A stretch of DNA of 62,312 bases, taken from positions 1 to 62,312 of the forward strand of contig PBNR01000075.1 in assembly GCA_002723195.1 (NCBI GenBank), read 5' to 3'. Of the stretch, positions 7,880 to 33,016 are shown piece after piece. The translations under genes were made by a program, and so were the position numbers. Within the stretch, counting starts at the first letter, position 1, and each line of letters starts with the position of its first letter. The stretch comes from Gammaproteobacteria bacterium. GTDB taxonomy: Bacteria > Pseudomonadota > Gammaproteobacteria > Pseudomonadales > Pseudohongiellaceae. The notes beneath the pieces were generated by a model. The model was not told the DNA's origin and searched no databases. It saw only the letters and a program-made list of their open reading frames with translations.

Positions 7880-8272
7880 TCTGTGATTTATGAGTTGAGA
7901 GTTTTTGGCCCTCCAAAAGGAGAAGCCAAAATTTACTCCGTATCATTATTGAGCGGTCGTAACAGGCACCTAGTATTCCGAATAAAAGAATGTGTCGGTC
8001 AGCGGGCATCCACATTTTGTCCAATTTTGCACGATCGCGATCGTACAAATATTTCATTCTGGTATTAGTGCTGACTGCTGCCAAGTTCCACCACAAAATG
8101 TAGTTCAGTGCGCCTCACCATAAGGCGTGAAAATCCAAGCCCTTCTTACGGGCGAATGACGCTGGTTAGGCGACAGGCTGTTTCACAGTGTCCTTGCCGT
8201 GGTGTCACTGAGCCAGATCGGATTTTTATTGTAGAAGCCGACCATACTCTCACAGGTTGAGGGTTGTCAACC
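7880..8272. other. candidate structured noncoding RNA or packaging-signal region
   Basis: About 400 nt with several hairpins by eye: TTTTGGC-c-CTCC-aaaa-GGAG-aa-GCCAAAA (7903-7931), CGCCT/AGGCG (8111-8127), GCCC/GGGC (8139-8153), GGCT..CAGTG/CACTG-AGCC (8176-8214), GGTTGA/TCAACC (8255-8272), plus the palindrome ACGATCGCGATCGT (8031-8044). Confidence 0.45.
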
Positions 8273-9576: not shown

Positions 9577-9630
9577 TTTGCGTTACACTTTCACTAGCCG
9601 TATACCTAATATTAATGGAGAGTAACTGTT

Positions 9631-9795
9631 ATGGACTTTAAAACACTTTTCTCCAGATCCACTATTGCTCATGTCTGCATGGTATCCGCTGTAATACTAT
9701 TAGGTTTAGGTTTTGCACAATTTGACATCGGTTGGGGTCTCGTTTCGTGGGGTCTCAGTTTAGGTGTATACGGCTATTTGTTAGGCGCTGAATAA
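9631..9795 (+). CDS. small membrane protein (54 aa)
   Basis: MDFKTLFSRSTIAHVCMVSAVILLGLGFAQFDIGWGLVSWGLSLGVYGYLLGAE*, 1-2 TM segments, ends just before the portal start; not in the ORF track. Confidence 0.55.
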   Translation: MDFKTLFSRSTIAHVCMVSAVILLGLGFAQFDIGWGLVSWGLSLGVYGYLLGAE

Positions 9796-9797
9796 AT

Positions 9798-11996: not shown

Positions 11997-12091
11997 TTAG
12001 TTTACTAAAACTACTTTAAGTAAACTCTTCACCACTGGCATTCAAATAAGTTGTACTATCTTGTTAATAGTTCGCTATATGAGGTACCACT

Positions 12092-13426: not shown

Positions 13427-13438
13427 GAGTCAAAAATT

Positions 13439-15223
13439 ATGGCTGAAGAAAACAATACAGAAGAAGTTGAAACTGAAGAGAAAACTCTTGAGGATCAACT
13501 TGCTGCTTTAGAAGAGGTTGCAGCCTCTTTTGAAGACGAAGCGGAAACTAAAGCGGATGTGTCTAGTTATGCATCGGAAGATTCTGAAGGTGGTGAAGAA
13601 GAAGCCGCCGAAGAAGAAGCCGCCGAAGAAGAAGATTCTGAAGAAGAAGATTCTGAAGAAGAAGCCGTTGAAGAGGAAGCCGCCGAAGAAGAAGGCGTGG
13701 AAGCCAAGTCTGAAGAAGAAGACATGGAAGAAAAAGTTGCAGCAGCAGTTGAAGAGGTTCTTGCCGAAGGTGAAGAAGCCGATGAAAAAGCCGCAACTCT
13801 TACAGGTTTTCCTCATGATCGTGTAGTCCTAGATGATGAAGATCAAGAGGATGATTCAGAAGAATTGATGAAGCCTCCGGGTGGCATTGAAGATGCTAAA
13901 GAACACGGAGGCAAAAAGCGCCGTGTTGTTGTTGTAGAAATGGACCCCGATGACATCACTGACGACATGAAGGCTTATGTAGTTGAAGTGGATGACGATG
14001 AAAAAGCCATGGGCGAAGAAGAGCCTGTTGCTACAGTTCCAGTCGCTTCAGCAGGAGCACCTCCTGAATTAGCCGAAGAAGAAGCCGAAGAAGAAGAAGA
14101 AGACGAAGATGACGATATGAAAGGTTGGGGTAAGAAACCCGGCAAAAATCGTCTTGCTCGTTTAATGGCTTTGGCTAATGGTGATGATGACGAAGATGAA
14201 GATGAAAAAGAAGAAGTACCTAATCTTCCTACAGCCGTTTTGGTTGGCAAAGAAGACGAAGTACCTGAAAATGGTATTTATGGTCTTCTCGATCAAGATG
14301 CTTTGAATAATCGACTAGAACGACTTGGAACAGAGGCTAAATCTCTAAACAGTGATTCATTCCTTTGCTCTATAGAGCGATCTGTACGCACAGGAGATGT
14401 TTGCAATTTCTGTCGTGGCGGATGTGCCCAAGAAAAGGGACTTCCGGGTCTGTTGGAAATTGAAGTAATGGCTGAACAAGAATTCAAGGGAGAGGTTGTC
14501 GATTCAGGTTATGCACCAAAAGATGACATCTTCGTTTTGGATATAAAAACAGATGAAGGATATATCGAAAGTTATTATGCAGGAAATGGTTCTCCATTGG
14601 GATGGATCAGACTAGAAAATGACGTAGAAGAGAAAACTGCTGAAGAAGTGGAAGGAACTACAATTATTTCCTTCCAAGAAGCAGAACAAGTTGCCTTAAA
14701 GAACATTGAAGGCAAATCTCTTGGAGTCGATGTTGACATCTTTGAAGGTGCTGATGCATACGTTGTGGAAATCGACGGTACGGATGGAAAGTCTTACGAC
14801 GCTTATGTAGGTGTTGACGGACAGTTCCTTGGTTCGGACATGATCGACCTTAGTGATGACGAAGAAGCAGAGATCAAAGAGTTGATTGCTGAAAAAGATG
14901 CTCTTGAAGCAGAAGTAAAACTCAAGAGGATTTACAGCGGAGAGCAACTCAAAGATCTTATTGCTGACGGTCTTGCAATGGAAGATGGCATGTATCCAAT
15001 CGTTGTAGTCGATGATCTTTCCACGGCGATTACTGCTTCTGCTCGTACAAAGTCACAGGAAGTAAGAGATCACATCACAAAACGTGCAAATGAATTGGAA
15101 TCAACTGAACTTATTCCTGAAGAATGGGATGAAGTTAAGGCCGCTGAAGTAGCGGAGTTTGAGGCTTCTTTGATGGAACTTCAAATGATGGAAGTTGAAA
15201 CTGATAATACGGACACGGAGTGA
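13439..15223 (+). CDS. Glu-rich scaffold-like head protein with PepSY-like domain and shared C-terminal DGxYPI module
   Basis: Long EEEAAEEE tracts; SFQEAEQVALKNIEGKSLGVDVDIFEGADAYVVEIDGTDGKSYDAYVGVDGQFLGS (PepSY-like); LAMEDGMYPIVVVDDLSTAI...HITKRANELESTELIPEEW. Located between protease and capsid genes. Confidence 0.75.
   Translation: MAEENNTEEVETEEKTLEDQLAALEEVAASFEDEAETKADVSSYASEDSEGGEEEAAEEEAAEEEDSEEEDSEEEAVEEEAAEEEGVEAKSEEEDMEEKVAAAVEEVLAEGEEADEKAATLTGFPHDRVVLDDEDQEDDSEELMKPPGGIEDAKEHGGKKRRVVVVEMDPDDITDDMKAYVVEVDDDEKAMGEEEPVATVPVASAGAPPELAEEEAEEEEEDEDDDMKGWGKKPGKNRLARLMALANGDDDEDEDEKEEVPNLPTAVLVGKEDEVPENGIYGLLDQDALNNRLERLGTEAKSLNSDSFLCSIERSVRTGDVCNFCRGGCAQEKGLPGLLEIEVMAEQEFKGEVVDSGYAPKDDIFVLDIKTDEGYIESYYAGNGSPLGWIRLENDVEEKTAEEVEGTTIISFQEAEQVALKNIEGKSLGVDVDIFEGADAYVVEIDGTDGKSYDAYVGVDGQFLGSDMIDLSDDEEAEIKELIAEKDALEAEVKLKRIYSGEQLKDLIADGLAMEDGMYPIVVVDDLSTAITASARTKSQEVRDHITKRANELESTELIPEEWDEVKAAEVAEFEASLMELQMMEVETDNTDTE
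13596..13740 (+). repeat. low-complexity GAAGAAGCCGCC/GAAGAAGAT coding repeat
   Basis: Imperfect tandem GAAGAAGCCGCCGAAGAAGAA units encoding (E)n(A/D/S) runs. Confidence 0.7.
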
Positions 15224-15227
15224 GAGT

Positions 15228-15482
15228 GTGTCTGATTCCGACGACATAAAGGCAGTAGTAAGACTTAACGCAGATGGGTCAATGACTCGTGTTGAACGTG
15301 TTTCGTCTTCTCAATCGTCTGATGATGACTGGCAAAAAGATCCGATGACTTTGCTTCTTATGGCTTATCGAGAAATGTTAAATAAGCCGGACTGTAGTCC
15401 TTTATTAGATCCTCTTATGGATGTAATAAGACAAAAAGAGCGGATGATGGTACAACGCAACAAACCAATGGAAGGTTATTAA
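15228..15482 (+). CDS. small hypothetical protein
   Basis: ORF track 15195..15482; GTG at 15228 (VSDSDDIKAVVRLNADGSMTRVERV...) fits better after the upstream stop. Confidence 0.65.
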   Translation: MSDSDDIKAVVRLNADGSMTRVERVSSSQSSDDDWQKDPMTLLLMAYREMLNKPDCSPLLDPLMDVIRQKERMMVQRNKPMEGY

Positions 15483-15485
15483 ACC

Positions 15486-15740
15486 ATGGATAAGAAAAGT
15501 TATTTCGACCCGAATCTGGGAAGGATTGTGCATGTAGGTGAAGAGCCAGAGGCTCCTGCTCCTGCTCCCGCTCCAGAACCAGAGCCTGAGGCTGAAGCCA
15601 CAGGTGAAAGGGCGAGAAATGATAAAGGTCATTACGTGAAGGATGATCCAAATACGGCTGATGTTAATGAGGCATATGTAGACGGAAAAACTCCAACAAA
15701 GAAAAAGGCCGCAGCAAAGAAAAACACAAAGAAAAAGTAA
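15486..15740 (+). CDS. small protein with Pro/Glu-Ala tract and Lys-rich C-terminus
   Basis: MDKKSYFDPNLGRIVHVGEEPEAPAPAPAPEPEPEAEATG...KKKAAAKKNTKKK. Confidence 0.7.
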   Translation: MDKKSYFDPNLGRIVHVGEEPEAPAPAPAPEPEPEAEATGERARNDKGHYVKDDPNTADVNEAYVDGKTPTKKKAAAKKNTKKK

Positions 15741-15755
15741 TCACCCTAAGGGAGT

Positions 15756-18700
15756 ATGATGAGTGATACAGAACTTGAGGTTAAAGCACCTTGGGACGCA
15801 ATTGACATACTCCCGCAGGAGAGGATTACCGGCGACATTCTTCGTGGTCGGGGACCGAGACGCGGGAATCTTGAGAGACTTCTTAAGTATTGGCGACCCA
15901 TTATGCGTAAGCCCGGTGGATTTCGCCGTTGCATAATCATTCTTGCTAATCATCCTGAGTTGTATCCACTTCAGCCATTATGTGCATGGCTTCATCATGA
16001 AACCACTGGCTTGTGGCCGAATGAAGGAAACCACCACGAAGGTGGAAAACTTGGTCCTGTCTTGCGTGGGTTTGGCGGTCGTGCCGCTAGGCGTGTAGTG
16101 CCGGGGAAACGTAGGCGCAGGAGACGTAAAAGTGATGACGGTGCTGTGGAAATGGCTAGTTGGCGTTTGTATAGAAGGCATTCTCGTGCGATTAAGGGTG
16201 TTAGCACTCAGTTGATTAACGGCAATGTAAATGCTGTTGATTTTAAGGCTGCACGTTTTGTTGCTGGTTTCCAGTCTGTTCCTGTTCCTTCAACTTGGGA
16301 GTGGGATGAGAATTATCCAAATGATGTAAAAGTTGAAACTTTTGAAGATTTGCTTTCAACGAAAGTTGGTTTGGTCACTTCCCATGGACGTTTAGGTCGA
16401 AGCCTTCAAGGTCTTGCATCATTCTTTATTCCCGGTGATATGGGCAAGTATCGCAGTCCATTGAGGTCTGCTCTTTATGGTGCTCTAACTCCGGGAGGTG
16501 GAGGAGGGCGAGGCATGGGAGGAGGTCGTCCTTCTATCGGGGGAAGGGCTTTACGTTGTCCGACTGGTTATGTAAATGGCGGACGATTTACAGACCCAAG
16601 TCTTACAAATTGTGGTGGACTTGTTTTTGATGTTCCTGCTGATGGTCCGGGTGCTGTTACGGCGGCTGACCGTAGCAAGATTACTCGTCGTTTCAGAGGC
16701 GGAGATGATTTAGAAGATGTCGCACGCGACATTGTGGTGAAGAAACCTAAGGGTGATCCTTTTGCTGTTGTGCGTGAAGCGGCAATGAAACCAAAGTCAA
16801 CACCAAATGAGAAGCGTCGTAATTCTGTTGTAACTGATGTCACGTCTTATGCATCTGAAAACAAAAACACGACACGAATTGTTCGTAGGGATGGCGTGGT
16901 TTTTGAGCCTCGTGTTGGTCCTGATGAATTAGTCAAAATGAGAGGTCATGACAATCTTAAAGATTCTGTTTATGTGACTTCTAAAATTCCAAGAAGAGGA
17001 AGTTTGGCTTCAGACGAATTGCGTCTTTTAACAAAAGGTGTAAAAAGCGTTGATTATGTTTTTCCAGAAGGAACTCTAAAAGTTGAACGAAAAAAAGAAA
17101 TAAGTTCTACCGTTGGCGCAAAAATGCGTACTCGCTGGTCTGCACTGAGCAGAGATCCAGATGTGCAAATTAACCCGATACAAGCAATAGAAAATTGGGT
17201 AAGAGAATTTCCTAAAGAAATTGAAATTACTTCAACATTTAAAAAGATTCCTAATGCCAACGAGCGTGTAGTTGTTTATTCCTCTACAGGCGAACGAAGG
17301 ATTGTGCCCAAGTGGGTATTTTCGTTGTATCTGTCAGACAAGGCTCCACGGAGACCTAAAGGAAGAAAACCCTTTACGACGGTTCGTCCTAAAAATGGGG
17401 AAAAGGTTATTCATCATAAAAGACCGGAACGAGATGAATATGCTGCATTATTAGTTGAATATAAGTCTCTTGGGTTTAATGCTGATTTTCGGATGCCGGT
17501 TCATAAAAAGAATGTTTCTGATATTCGGATTAGCCACACTTATGGTTTAAATAAGGATTCTTTAATTGATATTAAAGCCGCTCGTTTAGATCTTGCTCCT
17601 CATTATCAAGAGATGGCTATAAAGCGTCTTGGAAGGCGTAGTTTGGCTGGGCGTTCGATTTCTCGTATGGCTCGGCGGATGCCGAAAGTTGTTCCTTATG
17701 ACAGGAACGCTAGGGATGGCGATAATGATGGAATAGTTCAAGAAGGAACTATTTGGGAACGCCCTAATGGTGCTTTGTTCAGAGGCGTGCGAGACGGGGC
17801 AAGAAAACTTGTTGGTTCAGTTGATTTAGTCGATGCTAATGGAAATCAGATTGACTATAAACCGGGTGATCACGAGCGTTCTCCTTTACGTCGTAGAGAT
17901 GTGGGACAGAGGCGGAGAGAACTTGGTGAAAGGGTTATCCGTGACCGTGATGAAAGAATGGGTGCTGAAGCAGATTTTGGTCCCATAGAACGGCGTAGAG
18001 AATTGCGTCGTCTTCGTTTACAACGTGCTATGCGTGGGATTGAAAGAACTCCTGATAGGCGTGAACGTCGTGCTGATCGGTTGGATGCAAGAGCGCAACG
18101 AGACGAAGATCGTGGAAGGGCTGATCTTGAGTTGGCTGAAGAGATTCGTCAATTCAGGATTGAACGTAATGAAATGGAAGACCGTCACAGGCGTGAGATG
18201 GCGGAGTTGAATGAGAGGAATCCACGTTCTAGAGGAAGAAATCGTGAAAGAAGGCAGGAGCGTCGCGAAGAGCGTAGAGATCGAATGGACGAAAGGCTTG
18301 TCCGAGCAGGTGAAGCCGGTGATCGTTTAATTCGTCGTCGTGATGAAAGAGAAGGGGCTGAAGCAGTCTTTGAACCACGAAGAGAACGTAGGGGTATTAG
18401 AGATCGTGTCGATGCAGGACTAGCAAGAGCAGGCGAAAGGGCTGGCGATCTTATTGATCGTCGCGATCGTGAAGCCGGTGCTGCGGCAGATTTTAGAGAA
18501 ATAGATGAAAGAAACAGAGAAAGACGTGAACGCAGGGCTGGTATAGGACAAAGAATGCGTGACATTCTTGGTGTAAAGAAGCGTGACCAGTCTGAACGTG
18601 AGATGGAAGACAGGATGATCGGCAATGTTGCTGATGATGACAGAGAAGATGCTCGTGTTGCACTTGAGGTAGACATTCTTAATGCTGAAAATATTGGCAT

Positions 18701-20768
18701 ACCTGAACACAATGAAAAAGAAATGGCTGCTATTGCCAAAGCGCAAGTGGTTGGAGAATTGCTGCCCGAATCTGAAGTTGAAGATGAGGTGGATATTAAT
18801 TGGGTGACAAATCTTTTAGGGGAATCTGGAATTTCAATTGTTGATTCTCCTGAGTTAAGAGATGTTTTTGATGAAGAGATGATAGAGATCAAAGCGTTTT
18901 TAGAGGATGTTAATGATGAAGAATTGGGCGTTGCAGGAAGATGGAGAGGTGTTTCTTTAGGCGATAATTTCGTTAGGACATTTGAAGATGACGGACGGGG
19001 TTCGCCAAGATCTTTTGTGAGATTGAGCGTAGGAGCACTTCGTAATATTGCAAGACTTGATGATGATGATGATGGAAGCATATGGGATCATGATCGGATA
19101 GTGGCTGACTTAGAAAGAAATAACGGTGACGATGGGGTCGTTGAATTTAGTATTTCACGTTTAGAAAAGCGTTTAGCAACTCTAGAAAAAGCACAAACTA
19201 CAAAAAGAGCGGCGATTATGTATTCCGCTAAAGAAATAGATGGTTTTAGAATTGATGACGATGGTGTTATAGATTATCGGCTTCGAGCCGTAGGTGATGA
19301 CCGTATAGATACTGAAGATCAAAGAGATCGTTTTGCTCATTATGTCAGAATAGAAATGGCTAAACAGGATAATGATAAAATCCTAGAAGAGAAAGCAAAA
19401 ATTTTATCTACTTTAGATGACTTGAATCGAACTCCGGGTGATGTTGTTGATGCTGTAGTTGCTGATGTTCCAGATCCCATACAAGCAATAAGAAATCAAG
19501 ATATTGATGAATTTGAGGCAGAACTTGTAGCACATCTTTTAGACAAGCGTTTTGATGTTGTTTCTAAACAATATGACAGGACAGGTAAACCAAAAATAAA
19601 TCCTGAAGATCATGGTTTAGATAAAGATTCTTTAATTGCAGCCATCCAAAATGATGATATAACGCCAATCAAATCTCAATTGGAATCTTTTTTCCAAAGT
19701 GCTTTGAGATTAGGTGAAGGGAATACTTTTCAAGGTGTAGATGGATGGGAGTTTAGGATTTTAAACCGTAATGGTGAAACTCCAGTATTGGATTATTCTG
19801 GAAGGCAAGGTCGTTTAGACGTTTCTTTGGGTAGCAGTGAAGGAAAAATTTGGTATCGGAAACGAAACCGTAATGGAACTTGGACAGATTGGAGTAATGA
19901 CCAAGGTGGGTACACCAAACGCACTATTAGTTTTAAAGTCTCGAATGATGGAACTTTACAGATAGATCCTCAGAATCGAATGATGTTTCCGTCAGGTAAT
20001 GGCAGCAAATTAAAAGGTTCAGGTTTCGCTACCTTCTTTAATTACAACGCCTTTCTTCATTGGAAACAATTGGGAGCAGAGAAGGTTCATGTAACTACTT
20101 CTACTGATGGTCCTGTTTTTTGGGCTATGCAAGGTTTCGATAACCCTGATGTCACAAAAAGAGTGTTAAAAAGACTTAAAGATGCAATTGATAATAATGA
20201 CATGAATACCCCAATTCAAACTGATGAACAACGTGAAAGAATGTTGCGAATTTGGGAAATGCATCAGTCGGGAAGACCTGTAAATATGTTGATGATTCAT
20301 TCAGCATTAAAATGGGATGGCAAGCACGATTGGGAAAAACTATCAATTAGTAGAAATGCAGATGGAACATACAAAAAGGCTCGACGAAATTTAGGAATTG
20401 CAAAAACTAGATACGGACAGTGGTTCCTTGATAACGGTCGCATGTCTGAAGGTTGGTTCCATTTAGGAGACGAAACTCCTATAGGCAAATACTTGAATGG
20501 CATTATAGGAAATATAGGAAACATGGACGAAATTGACGACAATATCGCTGACCCATGGGGAGGAAGAGGCGCATATGTTGTAAATAACGGCAGAGTTGTG
20601 CGAGGACCAGTAAGGGCAAGTATTGGCGGTAGCCAGTTAGGTACTAATGACCGCTTGTATCCTGTGACAGACCCAGTGGTTATTGGTGATTTAGAAAGAC
20701 GAGGGTTACGCCCAATGACGGCTATAGGCCAAAATGATAGAGATCAGTTAGTTGCGGGGGCGAGATAA
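15756..20768 (+). CDS. giant head-operon protein (1670 aa): Excalibur-like DxDNDGxxQE module, Arg/Glu coiled repeats, GNAT-like C-terminal segment
   Basis: One uninterrupted ORF. VPYDRNARDGDNDGIVQEGTIWERPNGALFRG shared with the 2101-aa protein; RxGAxADF repeats; LKGSGFATFFNYNAFLHWKQLGAEKVHVTTSTDGPVFWAMQGFD resembles GNAT motif A/B. Confidence 0.8.
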   Translation: MMSDTELEVKAPWDAIDILPQERITGDILRGRGPRRGNLERLLKYWRPIMRKPGGFRRCIIILANHPELYPLQPLCAWLHHETTGLWPNEGNHHEGGKLGPVLRGFGGRAARRVVPGKRRRRRRKSDDGAVEMASWRLYRRHSRAIKGVSTQLINGNVNAVDFKAARFVAGFQSVPVPSTWEWDENYPNDVKVETFEDLLSTKVGLVTSHGRLGRSLQGLASFFIPGDMGKYRSPLRSALYGALTPGGGGGRGMGGGRPSIGGRALRCPTGYVNGGRFTDPSLTNCGGLVFDVPADGPGAVTAADRSKITRRFRGGDDLEDVARDIVVKKPKGDPFAVVREAAMKPKSTPNEKRRNSVVTDVTSYASENKNTTRIVRRDGVVFEPRVGPDELVKMRGHDNLKDSVYVTSKIPRRGSLASDELRLLTKGVKSVDYVFPEGTLKVERKKEISSTVGAKMRTRWSALSRDPDVQINPIQAIENWVREFPKEIEITSTFKKIPNANERVVVYSSTGERRIVPKWVFSLYLSDKAPRRPKGRKPFTTVRPKNGEKVIHHKRPERDEYAALLVEYKSLGFNADFRMPVHKKNVSDIRISHTYGLNKDSLIDIKAARLDLAPHYQEMAIKRLGRRSLAGRSISRMARRMPKVVPYDRNARDGDNDGIVQEGTIWERPNGALFRGVRDGARKLVGSVDLVDANGNQIDYKPGDHERSPLRRRDVGQRRRELGERVIRDRDERMGAEADFGPIERRRELRRLRLQRAMRGIERTPDRRERRADRLDARAQRDEDRGRADLELAEEIRQFRIERNEMEDRHRREMAELNERNPRSRGRNRERRQERREERRDRMDERLVRAGEAGDRLIRRRDEREGAEAVFEPRRERRGIRDRVDAGLARAGERAGDLIDRRDREAGAAADFREIDERNRERRERRAGIGQRMRDILGVKKRDQSEREMEDRMIGNVADDDREDARVALEVDILNAENIGIPEHNEKEMAAIAKAQVVGELLPESEVEDEVDINWVTNLLGESGISIVDSPELRDVFDEEMIEIKAFLEDVNDEELGVAGRWRGVSLGDNFVRTFEDDGRGSPRSFVRLSVGALRNIARLDDDDDGSIWDHDRIVADLERNNGDDGVVEFSISRLEKRLATLEKAQTTKRAAIMYSAKEIDGFRIDDDGVIDYRLRAVGDDRIDTEDQRDRFAHYVRIEMAKQDNDKILEEKAKILSTLDDLNRTPGDVVDAVVADVPDPIQAIRNQDIDEFEAELVAHLLDKRFDVVSKQYDRTGKPKINPEDHGLDKDSLIAAIQNDDITPIKSQLESFFQSALRLGEGNTFQGVDGWEFRILNRNGETPVLDYSGRQGRLDVSLGSSEGKIWYRKRNRNGTWTDWSNDQGGYTKRTISFKVSNDGTLQIDPQNRMMFPSGNGSKLKGSGFATFFNYNAFLHWKQLGAEKVHVTTSTDGPVFWAMQGFDNPDVTKRVLKRLKDAIDNNDMNTPIQTDEQRERMLRIWEMHQSGRPVNMLMIHSALKWDGKHDWEKLSISRNADGTYKKARRNLGIAKTRYGQWFLDNGRMSEGWFHLGDETPIGKYLNGIIGNIGNMDEIDDNIADPWGGRGAYVVNNGRVVRGPVRASIGGSQLGTNDRLYPVTDPVVIGDLERRGLRPMTAIGQNDRDQLVAGAR

Positions 20769-21034
20769 TGAGTTTTTTAAACAAAGAAGTAAAAGAACAA
20801 CTAAATAAATACGTTGACGGGCGAAACAACGCAGAGCGTTTAGGGATTGTTGAATTGGTGGCACAGTTTGTAGTCCACGATTTACCTACCGAGCAAAATA
20901 AAGAAGATGCTTTGCTTTACTCGAAGTATTACCTATCTACTGATAGGGGTAAAGAGGATTTAAGGGAGTTGTATCTTCCTGCTCTTTCTTGGGCAGAAGA
21001 ACGAGGCGGAGAAGGAGACGACGATGAGTCGTGA
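20768..21034 (+). CDS. small acidic protein (88 aa) coupled to the 1670-aa protein
   Basis: TAATG overlap with the upstream stop; acidic C-terminus GGEGDDDES. Confidence 0.7.
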   Translation: MSFLNKEVKEQLNKYVDGRNNAERLGIVELVAQFVVHDLPTEQNKEDALLYSKYYLSTDRGKEDLRELYLPALSWAEERGGEGDDDES

Positions 21035-24000
21035 ATTCTCTTTTCTGGATGAAATAAGTTTTAAAGCCCGTGTTTTTGAGTTAAGTCATTTTCCTGTTTC
21101 AGTTAAGTCTCCAGCAGGGATTATTAGGCGTGTTCCTAAGATTGTGCCTTATGATCCTGATGCTCGTGATGCTGACAATGATGGCTTAGTTCAAGAAGGA
21201 ACTATTTGGGAACGTCCTAGTGGCGCTCTTTTCAGAGGGTTACAGCGTGGTGCTAGAGCACTCGCAGGTGCTGTTGATCTTGTAGATGGAAGCGGTAATA
21301 AAATAGATTACAAGCCGGGTGATTCTGAGAACTCTCCTCTTCGTGGAGGCAGGGTTGAGCGTCGTATCCGTGGGCGTGGTCAACGTCGTTTAAATAGGGC
21401 AGAGCGCAGAAGGCAACGTGCTCAACGTGATCGGAATCGTGCACCTGAACAGCGTGAAGAACTTGATGCTTTAGATCAGCAAATTGCACGGCTTGAAAAT
21501 GCTGTGGCTGAAGACAGTCGTGAAAGACTATTAGCGGCTGAAGCGGCGCGTGAAGAGTTTGATCAAAATATGAATTCATTTTTGGATGGATTTATAGAGG
21601 GCTGGTCTGGAATCAAAAAAGGACCAAGATCACAAAGAGGTGACAAGGTACAACTTGATGCTGAAAAATTGGAAGGTGAGCGCCGTCAAGTAGGTGATGC
21701 TAATGATCGTGAACCTTTAAAAGATCACGAAGATTTATTTGATGATGAAATCCTTCCTGAAGAAATTGATCGTGATGAGCATCGTCGTAAATTGGATGAA
21801 GATCCTGACTACAGAAGAGAATGGAATAGGCGTTTAGCGGAAGAAGGCGAACATCGGCGTGCTGATGGGACAGTGGTTCCTCCGAGGGATGAACAAATTC
21901 CACGGGATGCTCCTGAAGCAGATGCACCTGAAGCAAGAGATATTCAGGAACTTCGTGACGAGATTCTGGATACTCCAGTTGGGGAACTTGTTAATAGTTA
22001 CCCAGAAGAAACAGCAGTTTTACGGAGCACACTTAGCGCTGTAGATGATCCGCTAACGCTTTTGGATGTTCCACTTAGAGATTTACCTGATGAAAATTTG
22101 CCGGTACAACTGGATGAGGCTGGTCGTTTACGAGGAGATGGAACATCTTTTGATGAAGAAAACATCAACGAAATTCTTGATGCAATAGTACCTGAAAATG
22201 TTCCAGAAACTCCTGAAAGTCAAGGAGGGGGTGCTCCTGATCCTGACGCTGACATTCCAGAAGATGATGCGTCGCTATCACCTAGAGAAAGATTGGTTGC
22301 AATATATCGACAAGATATGGAGCGGATAGAAGGGGATCTTGCACGCGGAGGAGAGGATTCAGACAGTGACGCGGAACAAGCGGAACAAATTGATAGGAAT
22401 ATCGACTTTATTGATTCGTTTGTGGAGGAAGTGGATTCTTCTCTTGATGCAGGTGCCATATCTGAGGAAGAGCGTGACAATTGGGTAGGAAGAGCGACCC
22501 GTGTTCGAGACCGATTAGATGCGGAACGGATTGCTATTCGTCGGGATATTGAAGATCGCGATAGTCAAATTGATGCCGATATGGATGCTGAAGAGGATCG
22601 GGGCAGGATAGTTGAAGGTTCTTTTTCTAATCTTAAACAACGAATGGAAGACGAGGGCATTAGGCGAGGCGAATCGCTTGATGGAACGGCTAGGCGAAGG
22701 TTTTTAAGGGGTCTATCTGATACGGAAGTAGAAGATGCTTTCAGAGATTCTGTTGCTCAGGGTGATGCAAGGACGGAAGTAAGGAGACGATTACGAAGAG
22801 ATGAAGTGAGCGTTGAATCTAGGGCTGTTGCAGATGAATATGCTAAAAGACTGTTCAATAAGTTTGCTGATGATCACGCTGATTCTTATTTTGATGAAGG
22901 CGGACCAGATTTCAATCCTGACAATTGGGAACCTTTGGAGGAGTTGCGTGAAACTCTTGCTGAAGCAGAGTGGACTCATTTAGAAGACGCTTTAAACAAT
23001 TGGGGCAATGGTAATACTGGTGAAGAGGGACTCAGCCGAGTTTATTGGGATCAAGTTGATGGTGATCCTGAGAATCTTGCTATGTGGAGTCCTTTTATAG
23101 AGGAATTTGAAGCAGAAGTTTCTAACGCTAATCCTTACAATCCTTTTGAATTTCGTCCACCAGAAGTTCGTGGCGATCAGTTCTACGATAACGAATCATG
23201 GATCGAAGGCGATTTTGCTTTTGATAATGAGGCGTTTACTTTCTCAATTGCAGAGGCTATAAGGAATGGCGACGATCAGACGCTACAGGGAACGGCACGG
23301 TCGTTAAGGCGTTACCGTGATGAATTGTCTGTAACTGAGTTGAATGGTGATAAGGGTCGCCGGTTAGATGAACTTGAAGACATTTTCCGTACTGAGGGTG
23401 GTAATCGTGCAGAAGAATTATTAGATCCTGACTTGCCTGATTCTGATTCGCCTGAGGCGGATTTGGCTGTTCAACAGCAAGAAAATTTAATAAATGAGTG
23501 GAATAACCTTCTTGATGATCCTGACGATGCACTTCTGTTTAGGAGTGTCGATGAGTTGGGTCAGATCGCTAGGGGAGAGTTTCCTGTCGGTGATATTGAT
23601 CCAGTAACCGCAGAGCAGAGAGCCTCGTTTCAGCGGCTTGCTCGTAGACAAATAGAGCAAAGGAACGTAGAGAGAGAACTTCCAAGCGGTGAAACAATTT
23701 TTGATGTTGCTGATATGGATGATGATCAGTTGGACACACGGATTGCTGGTTTAGTAGCCGCTGATCCTGTTGGGGATAATGCTTTGATTTCAGCGCAACT
23801 TAATGCATTGAAATTAGAGCGTCAACGAAGAATGCGTGGCGATTTTGAGGCTGAGGCTGTTGAAAGTATTGTTAAAGATTTAGATAATGACGAACTTGAT
23901 GAAATTATTGCGGGAGGGGACACACCGTTAAGTGAAATGCTTGGTGAGTCTGCCCGAATTTCAGCGGAGATAGAAAAGCGTGATCGGAGTAATGAAACTC

Positions 24001-27000
24001 CTGCTCTTCCTGAATTGAATGAAGCAGAAGCCTTTGTGCCTGTTGATCAAGAATTGGCAGCGTGGGGTGATGGTGTTAATGAAGGAATGGGTGATCATCC
24101 AGCAGCCTTAGAAATGTTGCAACTTATTCCACCTGATCAACGCAGTGATTTTGAGGATGCACTTTATTCAAATGATCAGCGGGGTCTTGAGGGGATAATT
24201 AATAGTTTTGAAGCAGAAGCAAATCGTCTTCCTATTTTGCCGGGTGATCCCGATCCAAATGATGCTATTAGGGAGTTCAGGCGATTTATAGATGCACAAC
24301 GAGCAAGAAGAGATCGTGAAAGAGATCTAAAAGGTTTGGTGGAAGACCCACATGGGCGTGTCCGTGAGACTCAGGCCAAACTTTACAAAGCCCAAAGGAT
24401 TGTTGATCAAGTTGTAAATGGACGTGTAAGTGACGAAGAATTAGACATTGCGATAAACGCTTTATCAGATTTTCAAAACCCTAGAGCAGTTGTTAATAGA
24501 GGCGATGCCATCAAGAACCATAATTTCTTGCATTCGTACAGGCAGAATCTAATTGCTCTTCGTGAAATAAGAAAAGGCGATATTGATGCGAATCCTGATG
24601 TTCGTGATGTTTTGGATGTCGAATGGGTAGATGCAGATGGTAAGTCAGCGATTGATCAAACTCTAATCAGAGATGTTGTTGATAGGTTAGATTTAAAAAT
24701 TCAGGGATTGCGTGACAAAAGACGTAATTGGAAAAAAGAATTACGTGAACGCCGTAAACAGAATGTAGATGTCGTTGATCCAAATGTCGAATCCTTTGAC
24801 CTTGAAGATGTTGAAGAATTTGAAAAAGCAATAGGTGTTCGGTATGCCTTGCATCAGAAATATTTAGATATTAAAGATCGCCCTAAATTTGAACTTGCTA
24901 AAGAGTCTCTTAAAAGGAATCGACAGAGTTTATATGACGGCACCCGTGGCAGGCGACAAGATCAAGGTGATTTGGCTCAGTTGGGCATATGGCGTGGGGA
25001 ACTGTTTGAAACAGGTGAAAGTCTTGACGCTATAGGTGGAGTGGATCAAAAAGATTACAACGGTTTAAATGATGCTGATTTGGTGAGAGCGATTGAAGAG
25101 CAATTATTACCAAATGTGAGAAAAAAGATTAAACGAGAAAATAATGGTCGGGCGCACTATAGAAATGATGGTAGGGATTTAGGTGTTCCCGGTATTGATG
25201 GACATATAGCCAATGTGGATCGTGCTTTAGAAGAAGTGAATAGACGCTGGGATGCTGCTCCGGCCGGTGGTGAAGTTCGTGATCAAATTGGTGGTGTAAG
25301 ACGAAAACTTAAAAATCTTAAATCAGGTAGAGGTCATAATCTTGAGATAGAACGTGAGTTTCGCGTACAAACAGAAGTGCAACGTATAGCAAATGTTAGA
25401 GAGAAAGATGGGAATGCTCGTGACGCAGTTCAAAATAGAAAAGATCTCAATAATTCCTTAGAGAACATTTTAGCGGTTAATGGATTAGCAGAACTAGACG
25501 CTGATGCCATTACGTCCATTCTGGAAGACCCTGACAATGAGAACGCTCCACGGTTGTTTTTAGAATTAAAAAATTGGAGGAGCGGAGCCTACGATATCGG
25601 CAGGACGGATGGTGTGAATCCTTCTGATTTCTTTGACGAAAATGATAATTGGAATCCAATGACTTCATTGCCAGAAGGAGTGGGAGAGGCAAACAGTTCG
25701 TTCCGAAGCAATGTAGATATTGTTGACGGTGTTATATCGGATCATAGTTCAAGAATGCGGGGGCGTGTTTTTGATGATTTTGAAGACAGAAGAAATGTAG
25801 ATTTAGCAAATCTTCAAGACATGGTGGACAGAAATCCTGATCTTGATGGTGAGGAGGGGGAAGATTTCCATTCATTGATGGAGTTAGTTAAAGATGAATT
25901 TGATAATTTGGATGCCCCTGATACAAATGATTCTGCTTCTTTCAATAATCGTTATAACGCTTTTAAACAGACACTTGCTGGACTACAAGACGTTGGGCAC
26001 GAAAGATTAGAACGAAAAGAAGTTGATGACCACATACAGTTGGCAGAGGATTTACTGTCTCCTAACCCACAGGCATTTGAGGGTTTGAGTATCGAAGAAC
26101 GTAAAGCCCTTGTTCTAGATGCCTTAGGAAATAATACGTTCATGCAAGTTGCCTCCTTCAGAGGCCGAGGAGTAAATCAATACGTTAGTGAAATTGTTGG
26201 TTATAACGATCGGTTGAGAGACCTGTGGAAAGGTTTTGATGTTGAGGTTTATAGGGAACGGCGGGCTGCTAACGGTATAGAAGAGTTGCCTGATCGTCCT
26301 AATCGTAAGGGTATGGATGTTGCAGTTGTAAGCGATTTCCAGTCTGGGTTAGCAGATTATGACAGTGATGGTCGTGCAGTAATTAAACAGGTTCCTATTG
26401 GTAATAAAGGAATGAATACGCAAGGAGATGCAGATACATATTTGGCTAACGGTGGACATCTAAAAGATGTGCCTACTGAATATTTGATAAAAGCAATTAG
26501 AAGTAATACTACTAATATGAATCAGGACGGTGATATAGATCCAACAAAACGATTCTCTGCGTACAAAATCGGAGATGGCGGAGTTAATACCCCCGGAGGT
26601 TTGAACGCTGTTATAGATAAGGCGACTGGAGCAGAACTAGGTCTTAAGTATGAAAACCTTAGAACTCGCGATGGGGCTTACGGGTATAGAGAAGATGTAA
26701 GTGAAGTTATGTCTGCACGAATAGCAGAAGATTTAGGTCTTTTGCAAGGTGCAGTAGTGCGTGGTGGCGCTCTTTCCGGCAATAATGACGCAAAGCGTGC
26801 GAATCCGCTTGTTTTTGAGTTAGCAGGATCTGTGGTTCATGATGGTTCATTTGAAAAGCCAGATGGTTTAAGAAGAAATGGCGATGTTGGCGATTTAGTT
26901 AGAGGTACCGTGTTGGACGCTATTTTGCATCATACGGATAGACATGAAAAGAATTATTTTCAGTACACAGATCGTAATGGCAATCTAAGGCTTTATGTGA

Positions 27001-27329
27001 TTGACAACGGACTGATAGATGCTAATCGTAATAATGATATGAATTCTGCGGCTGTACTGTCTGTGAAAAAATATCTTAAAAACGGGCAAAATAGTGGCAA
27101 TTCAGGTTGGATTAATAGGTTGAAAGATGTAGATAATAGTGAAATTCAACCTCATTTACAAGATGTGTTAACTCGTTTGGATGCGATGGATATTGATGCT
27201 TTACAAAATGAATTGTTGAATATGATGCCAGAAGTAGATGCCGACAGGGTGGATATTGAATGGCTTAAGAAAAGAATAGAAGATATCAAAAGGTTAGGTC
27301 TTCAAGGAATATTGGAGTTGTGGAGATGA
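21024..27329 (+). CDS. giant head-operon protein (2101 aa): Excalibur-like module, long charged helical region, PI3/4-kinase-like C-terminal domain
   Basis: VPYDPDARDADNDGLVQEGTIWERPSGALFRG near the N-terminus; C-term GTVLDAILHHTDRHEKNYFQYTDRNGNLRLYVIDNGL matches the D-x(6)-DRH-x2-N ... ID-N-G catalytic pattern of PI3/4K-like kinases. Confidence 0.8.
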   Translation: MSREFSFLDEISFKARVFELSHFPVSVKSPAGIIRRVPKIVPYDPDARDADNDGLVQEGTIWERPSGALFRGLQRGARALAGAVDLVDGSGNKIDYKPGDSENSPLRGGRVERRIRGRGQRRLNRAERRRQRAQRDRNRAPEQREELDALDQQIARLENAVAEDSRERLLAAEAAREEFDQNMNSFLDGFIEGWSGIKKGPRSQRGDKVQLDAEKLEGERRQVGDANDREPLKDHEDLFDDEILPEEIDRDEHRRKLDEDPDYRREWNRRLAEEGEHRRADGTVVPPRDEQIPRDAPEADAPEARDIQELRDEILDTPVGELVNSYPEETAVLRSTLSAVDDPLTLLDVPLRDLPDENLPVQLDEAGRLRGDGTSFDEENINEILDAIVPENVPETPESQGGGAPDPDADIPEDDASLSPRERLVAIYRQDMERIEGDLARGGEDSDSDAEQAEQIDRNIDFIDSFVEEVDSSLDAGAISEEERDNWVGRATRVRDRLDAERIAIRRDIEDRDSQIDADMDAEEDRGRIVEGSFSNLKQRMEDEGIRRGESLDGTARRRFLRGLSDTEVEDAFRDSVAQGDARTEVRRRLRRDEVSVESRAVADEYAKRLFNKFADDHADSYFDEGGPDFNPDNWEPLEELRETLAEAEWTHLEDALNNWGNGNTGEEGLSRVYWDQVDGDPENLAMWSPFIEEFEAEVSNANPYNPFEFRPPEVRGDQFYDNESWIEGDFAFDNEAFTFSIAEAIRNGDDQTLQGTARSLRRYRDELSVTELNGDKGRRLDELEDIFRTEGGNRAEELLDPDLPDSDSPEADLAVQQQENLINEWNNLLDDPDDALLFRSVDELGQIARGEFPVGDIDPVTAEQRASFQRLARRQIEQRNVERELPSGETIFDVADMDDDQLDTRIAGLVAADPVGDNALISAQLNALKLERQRRMRGDFEAEAVESIVKDLDNDELDEIIAGGDTPLSEMLGESARISAEIEKRDRSNETPALPELNEAEAFVPVDQELAAWGDGVNEGMGDHPAALEMLQLIPPDQRSDFEDALYSNDQRGLEGIINSFEAEANRLPILPGDPDPNDAIREFRRFIDAQRARRDRERDLKGLVEDPHGRVRETQAKLYKAQRIVDQVVNGRVSDEELDIAINALSDFQNPRAVVNRGDAIKNHNFLHSYRQNLIALREIRKGDIDANPDVRDVLDVEWVDADGKSAIDQTLIRDVVDRLDLKIQGLRDKRRNWKKELRERRKQNVDVVDPNVESFDLEDVEEFEKAIGVRYALHQKYLDIKDRPKFELAKESLKRNRQSLYDGTRGRRQDQGDLAQLGIWRGELFETGESLDAIGGVDQKDYNGLNDADLVRAIEEQLLPNVRKKIKRENNGRAHYRNDGRDLGVPGIDGHIANVDRALEEVNRRWDAAPAGGEVRDQIGGVRRKLKNLKSGRGHNLEIEREFRVQTEVQRIANVREKDGNARDAVQNRKDLNNSLENILAVNGLAELDADAITSILEDPDNENAPRLFLELKNWRSGAYDIGRTDGVNPSDFFDENDNWNPMTSLPEGVGEANSSFRSNVDIVDGVISDHSSRMRGRVFDDFEDRRNVDLANLQDMVDRNPDLDGEEGEDFHSLMELVKDEFDNLDAPDTNDSASFNNRYNAFKQTLAGLQDVGHERLERKEVDDHIQLAEDLLSPNPQAFEGLSIEERKALVLDALGNNTFMQVASFRGRGVNQYVSEIVGYNDRLRDLWKGFDVEVYRERRAANGIEELPDRPNRKGMDVAVVSDFQSGLADYDSDGRAVIKQVPIGNKGMNTQGDADTYLANGGHLKDVPTEYLIKAIRSNTTNMNQDGDIDPTKRFSAYKIGDGGVNTPGGLNAVIDKATGAELGLKYENLRTRDGAYGYREDVSEVMSARIAEDLGLLQGAVVRGGALSGNNDAKRANPLVFELAGSVVHDGSFEKPDGLRRNGDVGDLVRGTVLDAILHHTDRHEKNYFQYTDRNGNLRLYVIDNGLIDANRNNDMNSAAVLSVKKYLKNGQNSGNSGWINRLKDVDNSEIQPHLQDVLTRLDAMDIDALQNELLNMMPEVDADRVDIEWLKKRIEDIKRLGLQGILELWR

Positions 27330-27619
27330 GATTCGGATATATATACCCATCAGCAATATCACCAAAGAATGACAATATGAAACTAATCTTTATTGAAAAA
27401 TCAGATAAAGAAGTAGAAGTTCACACTAATGAAGGCATGGGTGCTAAAAAACGGTGGGAACAGATGATTGAACGAGATATCGAAAGTTATGGTGGTGTCT
27501 CTCTTGAAGGTTTAATGAATGGCTTTTCTTACTACACAAAAGAAATAGGCGAATATAGTGGTGATGATAAAGATCGTATTGACGGTTTGATTAAATACAT
27601 GGAACAAGAAGATGCCTAA
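27326..27619 (+). CDS. small acidic protein coupled to the 2101-aa protein
   Basis: ATGA overlap with the upstream stop (alternative GTG at 27320); MRFGYIYPSAISPKNDNMKLIFIEKSDKEVEVHTNEG.... Confidence 0.65.
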   Translation: MRFGYIYPSAISPKNDNMKLIFIEKSDKEVEVHTNEGMGAKKRWEQMIERDIESYGGVSLEGLMNGFSYYTKEIGEYSGDDKDRIDGLIKYMEQEDA

Positions 27620-28370
27620 AGACCCAGTTATTTCTACAACGCTTCCAAGCAAAAGACAAGCCTTGAAGGTTGGGAAGATGATTGGGTGCACTGGTGCCCA
27701 TAAGAAAAAGGGCGGTTGGGGTCTTTGTGAGTCTGAAGACTTGTTAAGGGTTTTAATTAAAAAAGGATCAAAAGCATATCGAGAAGCAAGAGACGGCAAA
27801 AAAGAGAAATCAGCCTGTTGCGAGGGTTGTGCTGAAACAAAAGTTAATGCGGCTGACAAAAAACTAATTTTTGGAACTCGAACTGAAGCCGAGTCTGCTG
27901 CTTTAGAAATGGGATGCTCTGGAGCACATCAACATGGAATCGGTAAATGGATGCCGTGTGAAACGATGGAACAATTTAGTGCTATCAGAAGTTCACCGAA
28001 TAAACGGAGAATAGTCATAGAGACACCCACGATGAAGAGACAGCGAAGAATCATTGAGTTGCCTAAAGCAACACAAAGAGATTGGCAACCATTAATCAAT
28101 AGGGGTGTTCGTGGTATAGAGACTTTGCCGGGTGGCGGTTTAGTGGCAGGTAAGCGTTATTACACAGATGAAAGGCGTGAAGATTACGCTGAACGTGGTT
28201 TAGCGATGCCTGATGGTTCTTACCCAATTCGTGATGTTGGGGACTTGAAAAATGCTATACAAGCCTTTGGTAGGGCAAAAAACAAGCCTGCTGTTAAGCG
28301 TCATATTAAAAAAAGGGCTAGAAAACTAGGGCGTTTGGACTTAATTCCTGCTAATTGGCGAAATTCTTAG
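27612..28370 (+). CDS. head-operon protein with two GCxGAH...WxxC repeats and a C-terminal DGxYPI/IPxxW module
   Basis: IGCTGAHKKKGGWGLCES and MGCSGAHQHGIGKWMPCET; C-term LAMPDGSYPIRDVGDLKNAIQAFGRAKNKPAVKRHIKKRARKLGRLDLIPANW. Confidence 0.75.
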   Translation: MPKDPVISTTLPSKRQALKVGKMIGCTGAHKKKGGWGLCESEDLLRVLIKKGSKAYREARDGKKEKSACCEGCAETKVNAADKKLIFGTRTEAESAALEMGCSGAHQHGIGKWMPCETMEQFSAIRSSPNKRRIVIETPTMKRQRRIIELPKATQRDWQPLINRGVRGIETLPGGGLVAGKRYYTDERREDYAERGLAMPDGSYPIRDVGDLKNAIQAFGRAKNKPAVKRHIKKRARKLGRLDLIPANWRNS

Positions 28371-28513: not shown

Positions 28514-29821
28514 ATGGCATTTGACGACAGTCGGCTGAAAGAACTTCAAGGCGCATTGCGTGAGAAGATGACAGCCAATAACGAGATTGCCGATTCTTTC
28601 AAAACGGAAGATGGTGCAATCGTAATAGATCAGGAGCGCAAGGCTGCTTTTGATCAAAACATGGGTGAAATTAAAGAAATTAAATCACTTATTGACAGCA
28701 TGGAAGACATGCAAACAGTTGCCGATTGGGGCAGCGAGGCTCCAGCAGAGTCCTTGGCAAAGGTTGCTGACGCAGACGGAACTATGGCTTCGGTTACCGT
28801 TCCTACTGGTGTTAAGAGCCTTGGTCAGGCTTTCATTGAGTCAGACGAATTCCAAGCCATGATGACTCGTGGCGCAGGCACCATGGATAGCCCTTATGGG
28901 ACTAAAACCCTTTATGGTGATGACTACAACGTGAAGGATGTTTATTCAGCCCTTCCTAGTGGTACTCCTGCTTCATTTGGAACGATCACTCGTGATCCAA
29001 TCGTCCCACAGGCACAGCGTCGTACACGAGTAAGGGATCTTTTCCCAAGCCGTTCGACCAACGCCGCAGTAATTGAGTATTTCCGCATGAGCGGGTTCAC
29101 GAATAACGCAAGTACAGTTCCAGAACGTGCTTCATCTGCCTTTGGCGCAAAGCCACAGACAACGATGGCATTCACTGGCGTACAAGCACCAGTTCGTACC
29201 ATCGCTCACTGGGAAGCCGCTCACCGTAATGTTCTTTCCGATGAACCGCAATTGCGTTCAATCATCGACAACGAACTTCTTTACGGTCTACGCCTTCATG
29301 AGGATGCTCAGATCCTTTCAGGTGCAGGCACCAGCGAAGACTTAACAGGTATTTTGAATACTTCTGGTATTCAGACATACTCATGGTCTTCAGGTGCAAG
29401 TACTCCAGTTAAGGACACCAAGGCAGATGCTATTAGACGTGCAGCGACACTCTCGTTCCTCGCCTACTACGAGCCAACTGGTGTGATCCTTAACCCCAAC
29501 GACTGGGAAGACATCGAATTGACCAAAGATTCAAATGGTCAGTACTTGATGGCAGTTTCCATCGTTGCTGGTGCAGAGTCACGCATCTGGCGTATTCCTG
29601 TTGTAGACACCCCAGCAATCGCTTCGGGCACAGCCCTTATCGGTTCGTTCGGTCAAGGTGCTCAACTGTATGACAGGGAAGAGGCTACAATTCGTGTCAG
29701 CGAACAGCACAGCGATTTCTTCGTTCGGAATGCAATCGTCATTCTGGCGGAACAGCGTCTAGCCCTTGCGGTTAAGCGTCCAGAATCGTTTGTGAAAGTC
29801 ACCTTTGATGCTGCTCCTTAA
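28514..29821 (+). CDS. major capsid protein, HK97 fold
   Basis: Helical N-terminal region then LGQAFIESDEFQAMM...; RTRVRDLFPSRSTN..., APVRTIAHWEAAHRNVLSDEPQLRSIIDNELLYGLRLHEDAQILSGAGTSEDLTGIL: classic HK97-type capsid. Confidence 0.94.
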   Translation: MAFDDSRLKELQGALREKMTANNEIADSFKTEDGAIVIDQERKAAFDQNMGEIKEIKSLIDSMEDMQTVADWGSEAPAESLAKVADADGTMASVTVPTGVKSLGQAFIESDEFQAMMTRGAGTMDSPYGTKTLYGDDYNVKDVYSALPSGTPASFGTITRDPIVPQAQRRTRVRDLFPSRSTNAAVIEYFRMSGFTNNASTVPERASSAFGAKPQTTMAFTGVQAPVRTIAHWEAAHRNVLSDEPQLRSIIDNELLYGLRLHEDAQILSGAGTSEDLTGILNTSGIQTYSWSSGASTPVKDTKADAIRRAATLSFLAYYEPTGVILNPNDWEDIELTKDSNGQYLMAVSIVAGAESRIWRIPVVDTPAIASGTALIGSFGQGAQLYDREEATIRVSEQHSDFFVRNAIVILAEQRLALAVKRPESFVKVTFDAAP

Positions 29822-31114: not shown

Positions 31115-33016
31115 TTATCTGATTGGGCAGGCTCCTGTGGCACAATCATCATCTAAGAGTTCACTCATTCCAGCATTAATAAGAATTTTTTCGTCATTAA
31201 CCTGTGAAAGCATTTCTTGGTATTTATCTAAAGTTATTTCTTCTAAAGGTGCTTGTTCAAAACCGTGTTCGCTGTGAAGAAGGAAAGAAACAGATTTCAT
31301 TGTTTCCCAGTTGATTCTTAAGAAGTCTTGAACACTTTCAAGTTCTCCGGGTTTGATGTAAACAGTTACTGAAACAGCGTTATCTGCCCATTCTTCTTGT
31401 AAGCGACATTGAAGTTTAAGTTGATCAACTGCGGTCATCTCTTCAGCAAGAACAGTTCCTTCGGGAAACTCACAAGGGAATTCGACAACTTTTGTTCTGT
31501 TGTCGTTGTTAACCCATTCAACGTGGTAGCCACGCTGTTCGCAGTAATCCAATAGTGGATCGGTAGAAGCCATGCGTACTCTACGGATGTGATGTTTGCT
31601 ATATCCGGGGTGTCCGCCGGGTGTTACACCACCGAGAAGGCTTAATGTTCCACTTGGTTTAACTGTTGTTAAGCGAACTGAAGTTGGCCATTCTTTGTAA
31701 GAAGACCAGAAAGCATCAAAGTCATAAAGTGCTTCATAGGCGGGTGAAAGCCAATCAAGTTTGTCTAATGCTTGTGTTACACCAGTAACACCAAGTCCAA
31801 GACGCATATTTTTGCTTGTAATTTCATCTGACTCACGATCTAAATAAGGAAGAGCCGCTACAGCCTTTTGAATTTTGTAAAGAAGTTTTGAAATGTCAAT
31901 TAGTTCTTCTTGGCTTTCAATGTTTGGCAACATTATTTCTGCAAGATTGCAGGATTCACGGTTTGCAAGTCCAATTTCTGCACATGGATTTGTGCCTTCT
32001 ATTGTTTTGTCTTCACGAACTTCAAAACGACGGGCGTATTTTCTTGAAGCATCCAAGTTGAATAATCCGTAAGGTTCACCGTTTCCTTTATACCCTTCCC
32101 AGAACACGTCTGGAATACCTTCTATGTCAGAGGTGACAATGCTGTTGTTTGACATTGCACGATGGTATGGAACATTTCCTAAGTCCCATCTTTTTGCGTG
32201 GAGATAGTCAATATCGAATGGGCTACCAAGAGCAATCTCTGCACTTCTGCGGACATTGCCTGCTACGACAACTGATCCAATGATGTTGCAAATATCCAAA
32301 ACTTCGACTGCGCGAAGATTTCGACCTATAGCCCCATTAAGGACAGCGCAAATTTTACTTACACCTTCTACAAGAATGCCCGGTCCAGATGCGGTTCCGC
32401 CAAATGTGCGAATAGGTTCTCCTGCCGCTCTAATTAGTTGTGTCGAATACGTGAATTCTGTTGGGTCGTTCTTGTCTCCTAAGTAAGTTTTTACTGCACG
32501 GAGGAGACACTCTGCCCAACCTTCTCTTTTGTCTGGAACAATGTAATCAGCATCGGCAACGTCATGGTTATCCACGGCACCTTGACGTACTACGCCAAGA
32601 CGAATTGGATTAAGGACAGAAAAGCCAACACCTCCACCAAGCATGAGGCGTTCAAACATCCAAGAAAAATCTTCTGGTTTTTGAATATCGACAAACCAGC
32701 AATTACAAAGGCTGTCTCCACCTAAACGAAAGTTGTTGGGTGTTCCCAACTGCCAGAGCATTCGTCCACCGGGCATACCTTTTAAATTAAACATGTAATC
32801 GAACATGCGTTCGGCTTCTTCGTCGCTTAGTTCTGCTCCGATTTCATTGGCACCATCGACTACACGTCTACAGGTCTCCCACCATTCTTCTGTTTGACCT
32901 GTGTCTTCATCAACAATGCGTGCATACGTTCGTTTATAGACAATGTATCCAAGTCCGTTAAACCCCCAAGGGGCTGCTTTTTGAGTATAGGGTTCTAAGA
33001 ATTTTTCGTTAAGCAT
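31115..33016 (-). CDS. nrdJ: adenosylcobalamin-dependent (class II, monomeric RTPR type) ribonucleotide reductase
   Basis: GGRMLWQLGTPNN...DSLCNCWFV, GGGVGFSVL, EGTNPCAEIGLANRESCNLAEI, KPSGTLSLLGGVTPG, C-terminal DDDCATGACPIR. Confidence 0.95.
   Translation of the reverse strand: MLNEKFLEPYTQKAAPWGFNGLGYIVYKRTYARIVDEDTGQTEEWWETCRRVVDGANEIGAELSDEEAERMFDYMFNLKGMPGGRMLWQLGTPNNFRLGGDSLCNCWFVDIQKPEDFSWMFERLMLGGGVGFSVLNPIRLGVVRQGAVDNHDVADADYIVPDKREGWAECLLRAVKTYLGDKNDPTEFTYSTQLIRAAGEPIRTFGGTASGPGILVEGVSKICAVLNGAIGRNLRAVEVLDICNIIGSVVVAGNVRRSAEIALGSPFDIDYLHAKRWDLGNVPYHRAMSNNSIVTSDIEGIPDVFWEGYKGNGEPYGLFNLDASRKYARRFEVREDKTIEGTNPCAEIGLANRESCNLAEIMLPNIESQEELIDISKLLYKIQKAVAALPYLDRESDEITSKNMRLGLGVTGVTQALDKLDWLSPAYEALYDFDAFWSSYKEWPTSVRLTTVKPSGTLSLLGGVTPGGHPGYSKHHIRRVRMASTDPLLDYCEQRGYHVEWVNNDNRTKVVEFPCEFPEGTVLAEEMTAVDQLKLQCRLQEEWADNAVSVTVYIKPGELESVQDFLRINWETMKSVSFLLHSEHGFEQAPLEEITLDKYQEMLSQVNDEKILINAGMSELLDDDCATGACPIR

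Follow-up and report, generated by a model that had tools for sequence, protein, structure and literature searches.

A probable PI3/PI4-kinase-like domain at the C-terminus of a giant protein encoded among the head genes of a contractile-tailed phage

What would a kinase-like domain do at the end of a 2101-residue protein whose gene lies among the head genes of a phage? The window analysed here (62,312 nucleotides) is the entire contig C75 of an 86-contig bin, and it encodes a contractile-tailed phage. Its genes include those for a terminase, a portal-MuF fusion, an S78 protease, a 594-aa protein, two giant proteins (giants 1 and 2), a DUF3721 protein and the capsid, as well as a head-tail adaptor, neck, sheath and tube proteins and a class II ribonucleotide reductase. 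The order portal, protease, ~600-aa protein, giant 1, giant 2 is conserved, and the giants are placed between the prohead protease and major capsid genes:

9798-11996 (+): portal-MuF fusion (Phage_portal, 9e-52; Phage_Mu_F, 2.8e-6, just under the cut-off)
12092-13426 (+): prohead protease, S78 (PF04586, 1.3e-14; phrog_80, 2.4e-35)
15756-20768 (+): giant protein 1, 1670 aa, without the kinase module (shared motif at aa ~633-712)
21024-27329 (+): giant protein 2, 2101 aa, ending in the kinase-like domain (one uninterrupted ORF of 2101 codons)
28514-29821 (+): major capsid protein, HK97 type (PF05065, 6.7e-45)

The capsid protein is 48% identical to that of Brevibacterium phage Cantare, in a 46-48% range that includes Gordonia phages; one of these phages, ChisanaKitsune, has an annotated VIP2-like ADP-ribosyltransferase between portal and capsid. 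The DUF3721-containing protein (27612-28370, +) is encoded in the interval between giant 2 and the capsid and is kept in two relatives, the phage contigs C3 and L012. The B12-dependent (class II) ribonucleotide reductase (31115-33016, -) lies on the opposite strand, between the capsid and the tail genes.

The initial annotation had placed a PI3/4-kinase-like domain of giant 2 at 26290-27110. We found that the domain itself holds but that its right limit cuts the C-lobe: conservation extends to the protein end (last codon 27324-27326), and the module of ~315 residues begins near 26388 and continues to the stop. The DRHxxN loop and the IDNG peptide are present where they had been claimed, at aa 1963-1977 and aa 1991-1999 of the ORF at 21024-27329 (+). 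Of the two pieces that had been read as N-lobe, GLKYENLR belongs there and holds K1875, whereas DGRAVIKQVPIG is the start of a helical segment ahead of the N-lobe. This pre-kinase segment, which reads QVPIGNKGMNTQ...GGHLKDVPTEYLIKAI, is kept across the family. The elements of the module are as follows:

26388-27326 (+): PI3/PI4-kinase-like module, aa 1789-2101, with the helical pre-kinase segment (family profile, AlphaFold2 model, Foldseek)
26640-26663 (+): GLKYENLR, beta-3 strand with the probable ATP-binding K1875 (model strand 87-91 ends at the lysine; L013 and L057 register)
26694-26741 (+): alpha-C-like helix with E1894 (E invariant in 14/14; model helix 105-119)
26910-26954 (+): catalytic loop VLDAILHHTDRHEKN, aa 1963-1977, with D1972, H1974 and N1977 (D, H and N invariant in 14/14)
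26994-27020 (+): metal-binding element YVIDNGLID, aa 1991-1999, with D1994 (D invariant in 14/14)

Giant 2 carries a complete kinase catalytic set, namely K1875, E1894, D1972-R-H-x-x-N1977 (D1972-R-H-E-K-N1977 in the window) and D1994-N-G, in which the DFG equivalent is DNG and the F is not kept. The E, D, H, N and metal-binding D are invariant across all 14 aligned members of the family; lack of conservation of the catalytic Asp and Asn in homologues had been set beforehand as grounds for refutation, and the assignment survives this test. The beta-3 lysine is most probably K1875: its register is backed by L013 (YYMKK) and by a held-out L057 relative (VIDKATGAELGLKY vs FIDTKTGQMIGVKY), with the caveat that in the MAFFT alignment A3 the lysine column is filled by its neighbour K1866.

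Using a profile built from the 13 relatives, with the window left out, we recovered the window domain at E=1.5e-27 (93.1 bits), while the best of 1000 shuffles in the same test reached 0.45, which rules out a chance motif. The other 132 window ORFs searched with the kinase profile gave no comparable score. In leave-one-out tests, each of the 14 members was recovered by the profile of the others at 3.1e-14 or better. Beyond the window, giant head-region proteins finish in this domain on 12 contigs of IMG/VR, which came from alignment-based scans, and on C3, a related phage contig of the same bin. Both C3 giants (1969 and 1937 aa) end in a kinase-like domain, with the motifs DQHEQN...IDFG and DRHPGN...IDLAW. 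The window protein sequence, scanned alone, gave no match in IMG/VR or GTDB, and when the window kinase, four further members of the family and the N-terminus of the giant were searched by tblastn in 50,697 phage records, none had a relative there. Among 298 same-order genomes besides the bin, one matched the kinase profile, weakly (7.9e-4), and the domain is therefore not a common host gene. One IMG/VR contig (L057, 832-14972) encodes three kinase-like proteins of 1057, 1500 and 1122 aa.

When the family profile (14 members) was compared with the PDB, all 60 of the matches listed belonged to the PI3K/PI4K/PIKK superfamily, including mTOR (best, 4e-4), PI4K-beta, Vps34, DNA-PK and ATM; the window domain alone had no significant match among PDB sequences. 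PF00454 (PI3_PI4_kinase) matches 11 of the 14 members one by one, with a best value of 7.1e-7. The C3 paralogues score 19.3 and 17.5 bits against a cut-off of 27.1, and the window's own domain gave no Pfam match and did not reach the curated PF00454 cut-off. We therefore name the window copy PI3/4-kinase-like through the homology of its relatives and do not file it as a PF00454 member. With this qualification, the family profile, the PF00454 matches of 11/14 members and the PDB matches listed bear out the PI3/4-kinase-like assignment of the initial annotation. Two other profiles that it had put forward found no place here: HipA_C (PF07804) was ruled out, with no HipA match in the 14 members at E<=1, and actin-fragmin kinase (PF09192) was absent from the Pfam matches of all 14. 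Fam20C (PF06702) was also ruled out, with a single member matched at E=0.19. The phage family phrog_3162, whose function is not assigned, overlaps the catalytic region and matches 5/14 members there (best 1.5e-6; window copy 0.6).

For the fold, single-sequence prediction of the domain gave a pLDDT of 36.5, and AlphaFold2 with 12 sequences gave a model of medium confidence (pLDDT 64.5, pTM 0.65), in which 94 of the 317 modelled residues had a pLDDT below 50. The order of elements in the model is that of kinases: beta strands, an alpha-C helix with E1894, strands that pair round the catalytic region, and a helical C-lobe. A predicted fold other than a bilobal kinase was to count against the initial annotation; the structure search with this medium-confidence model returned mainly kinases: the Foldseek matches listed from the PDB were nearly all kinases by fold, and the most probable were PI4KII alpha and beta (probability 0.80-0.97). 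The E-values were weak (best 0.014) and the TM-scores low (~0.2-0.35), which is expected because the lobe packing is uncertain in the model. Among viral proteins the top match (E=1.5e-10) came from an uncultured tailed phage, in a protein annotated as PI3/4-kinase, and gp16 of the halovirus HSTV-2 was among the first five. With PF00454 kinases (PI4KII, PI4K-beta, Vps34, PIKKs) the giant 2 domain shares the DRHxxN loop, an IDxG-type element, the beta-3 K, the alpha-C E and, by a medium-confidence prediction, the kinase fold. It differs in that the window copy falls below profile detection, reads DNG in place of DFG, is C-terminal to ~1780 residues of phage protein and follows a family-specific helical pre-kinase segment. 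Kinase ancestry of the giant 2 C-terminus is well supported, and its last ~315 residues are probably a divergent PI3/PI4-kinase-like domain that is active and serves as a C-terminal effector module.

Evolutionary rates differ within the family. In three related kinase modules dN/dS is ~0.25-0.30, which indicates constraint in this one set of relatives; in the L027/L028 pair it is near 0.8 (0.117/0.151), and constraint is not uniform. The window kinase forms a long branch in the gene tree (swap or fast evolution), a poorly resolved tree in which its placement is not reliable. Over its N-terminal ~290 aa, giant 2 shares 50-55% identity with the giant 2 proteins of relatives.

Both giants, in C75 and C3 alike, share a DxDxDGxxQEGTIWERP module, and giant 1 has a further conserved domain:

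19521-20555 (+): ~330-aa domain of giant 1, which precedes the kinase in several relatives (alignment A9)
21114-21344 (+): N-terminal module of giant 2 with the DADNDGLVQEGTIWERP motif (alignment A2, 66-73% identity)

The kinase module is found on giant 2 alone in the window, on both giants in C3, where the orthologue of giant 1 bears it, on giant 2 in L012 and L044, and on giant 1 alone in L048, L050 and L051, in which a complete giant 2 is without it. In L031, giant 1 ends with a Fic domain (HPFEDGNGR), in the place that the kinase occupies in other relatives. The module has been gained, lost or exchanged between the two giants, and such kinase/Fic and giant-to-giant variation is how effector modules would be expected to behave. 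Within a single chain of the window, the kinase is the only recognisable effector domain; the chains of relatives also carry pentapeptide repeats, a Fic domain or the conserved domain of ~330 aa. In giant 1 this last domain, conserved across 12 relatives, has an HPW-like element and the invariant residues W, R, N, G, H and Y; it had no relative in Pfam or the PDB, and is possibly a second enzyme. An acetyltransferase identity had been suggested by eye, and profile searches gave it no support. The L031 giant (8066-18094) is 3343 aa long and has pentapeptide repeats besides its C-terminal Fic domain.

We consider it fairly probable that the giant 2 kinase is a virion-packaged, host-modifying enzyme of the polyvalent-protein type, for which we infer packaging, activity and substrate. 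The giant would be made late, together with the head proteins, taken up by the prohead, where the S78 protease may trim it, and ejected along with the DNA; the kinase would then move phosphate from ATP to host molecules early in infection. Its targets would most likely be proteins, the choice of protein over lipid being a judgement only. A virion or head association of giant 2 fits its gene position, and host-molecule modification by a packaged enzyme appears, by analogy, the likeliest role. Polyvalent proteins (Iyer et al. 2017, PMC5512222) are large phage proteins that carry enzymatic effector modules, have their genes together with those of the virion and are presumed to be injected. Giant 2 is likewise a giant protein encoded among virion genes, whereas the kinases of polyvalent proteins are of a shortened serine/threonine/tyrosine type or zeta-toxin-like, not PI3/4K-like; together with T4 Alt, these proteins are the precedent for packaged modifying enzymes (PMC5512222). 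T4 Alt, a packaged ADP-ribosyltransferase that modifies host proteins immediately on entry, is an analogue in how it works, but it has another fold and chemistry and no kinship with the giant 2 kinase. Packaged enzymes of this kind act on the host ahead of any phage gene expression. If the giants are packaged, PI3/4K-like kinases would join the arsenal of uncultured phages for such pre-expression action.

The gene position also agrees with a kinase fold that works while particles are assembled, in the infected cell or the prohead, on capsid, scaffold or the giants, and is not delivered onward, since the genes stand among head genes and adjoin the prohead protease and capsid. We regard this as unlikely: variable presence on two giants, and Fic in the same slot, suit exchangeable effectors better. 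Less credible is a strict lipid kinase that phosphorylates the host's phosphatidylinositol at the membrane as the phage enters. PI4KII is indeed the closest solved fold by Foldseek probability, the nearest capsid relatives infect actinobacteria, and actinobacteria make phosphatidylinositol; however, protein kinases (mTOR, ATM, DNA-PK) are among the PF00454 relatives, so the substrate cannot be read from the fold. Kinase folds with other chemistry exist (SelO), and the Fic domain in L031 is an AMPylating one, but the ordinary DRHxxN/D set, whose sequence gives no pointer to SelO's inverted nucleotide site, makes AMPylation, other nucleotidyl transfer or a small-molecule or aminoglycoside-type kinase very improbable. 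A pseudokinase serving as a binding or structural module is the least probable reading, for although the window copy has DNG instead of DFG and is less conserved than its own protein's N-terminus (25% vs 50% identity to C3_1937), its catalytic residues are all retained, and even very divergent relatives keep E, D, H, N and D without exception.

For a virion-packaged kinase that modifies the host, parts of the picture are already known: PI3/4K-like domains are annotated in the structural regions of haloviruses and some uncultured phages, and virion-delivered effectors are an established theme. In the haloviruses HSTV-2 and HRTV-11, gp16 (a 'phosphatidylinositol kinase') likewise has a C-terminal PI3/4K-like domain and lies near the capsid gene, but it is a 490-aa protein of an archaeal virus with another carrier. 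The carrier part resembles a neck protein of the HK97 gp10 type, and the family profile matches gp16 weakly (19.4 bits). HSTV-3 gp16 has a related neck-like N-terminus and no kinase, with an HEFGH (zincin-like) stretch instead. The gp16 genes lie at 10647-12119 of L059 (HSTV-2) and at 2480-4945 of L061 (HSTV-3).

In the open-licence literature searched, we found no description of the giant carriers, of the two-gene exchangeable arrangement or of this kinase family. A tentative reading, to which we give somewhat less than even credence, is that the head cluster holds a previously undescribed two-gene locus in which the DxDxDGxxQEGTIWERP giants deliver exchangeable C-terminal enzymes, chiefly PI3/4K-like kinases acting on host proteins upon entry. 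If true, the locus would represent a class of virion-delivered PI3/4K-like kinases. Kinase/Fic exchange and movement between adjacent giants suggest that further effectors may be found at the C-termini of the giants in the protease-capsid interval, and phage families filed as unknown, such as phrog_3162, gain a candidate function.

As to the bin itself, no 16S gene was found in its 86 contigs. Its only two WhiB genes are both on contig C45 (7718-7918, -; 26196-26390, +), possibly another actinophage, possibly a stray contig from an actinobacterium.
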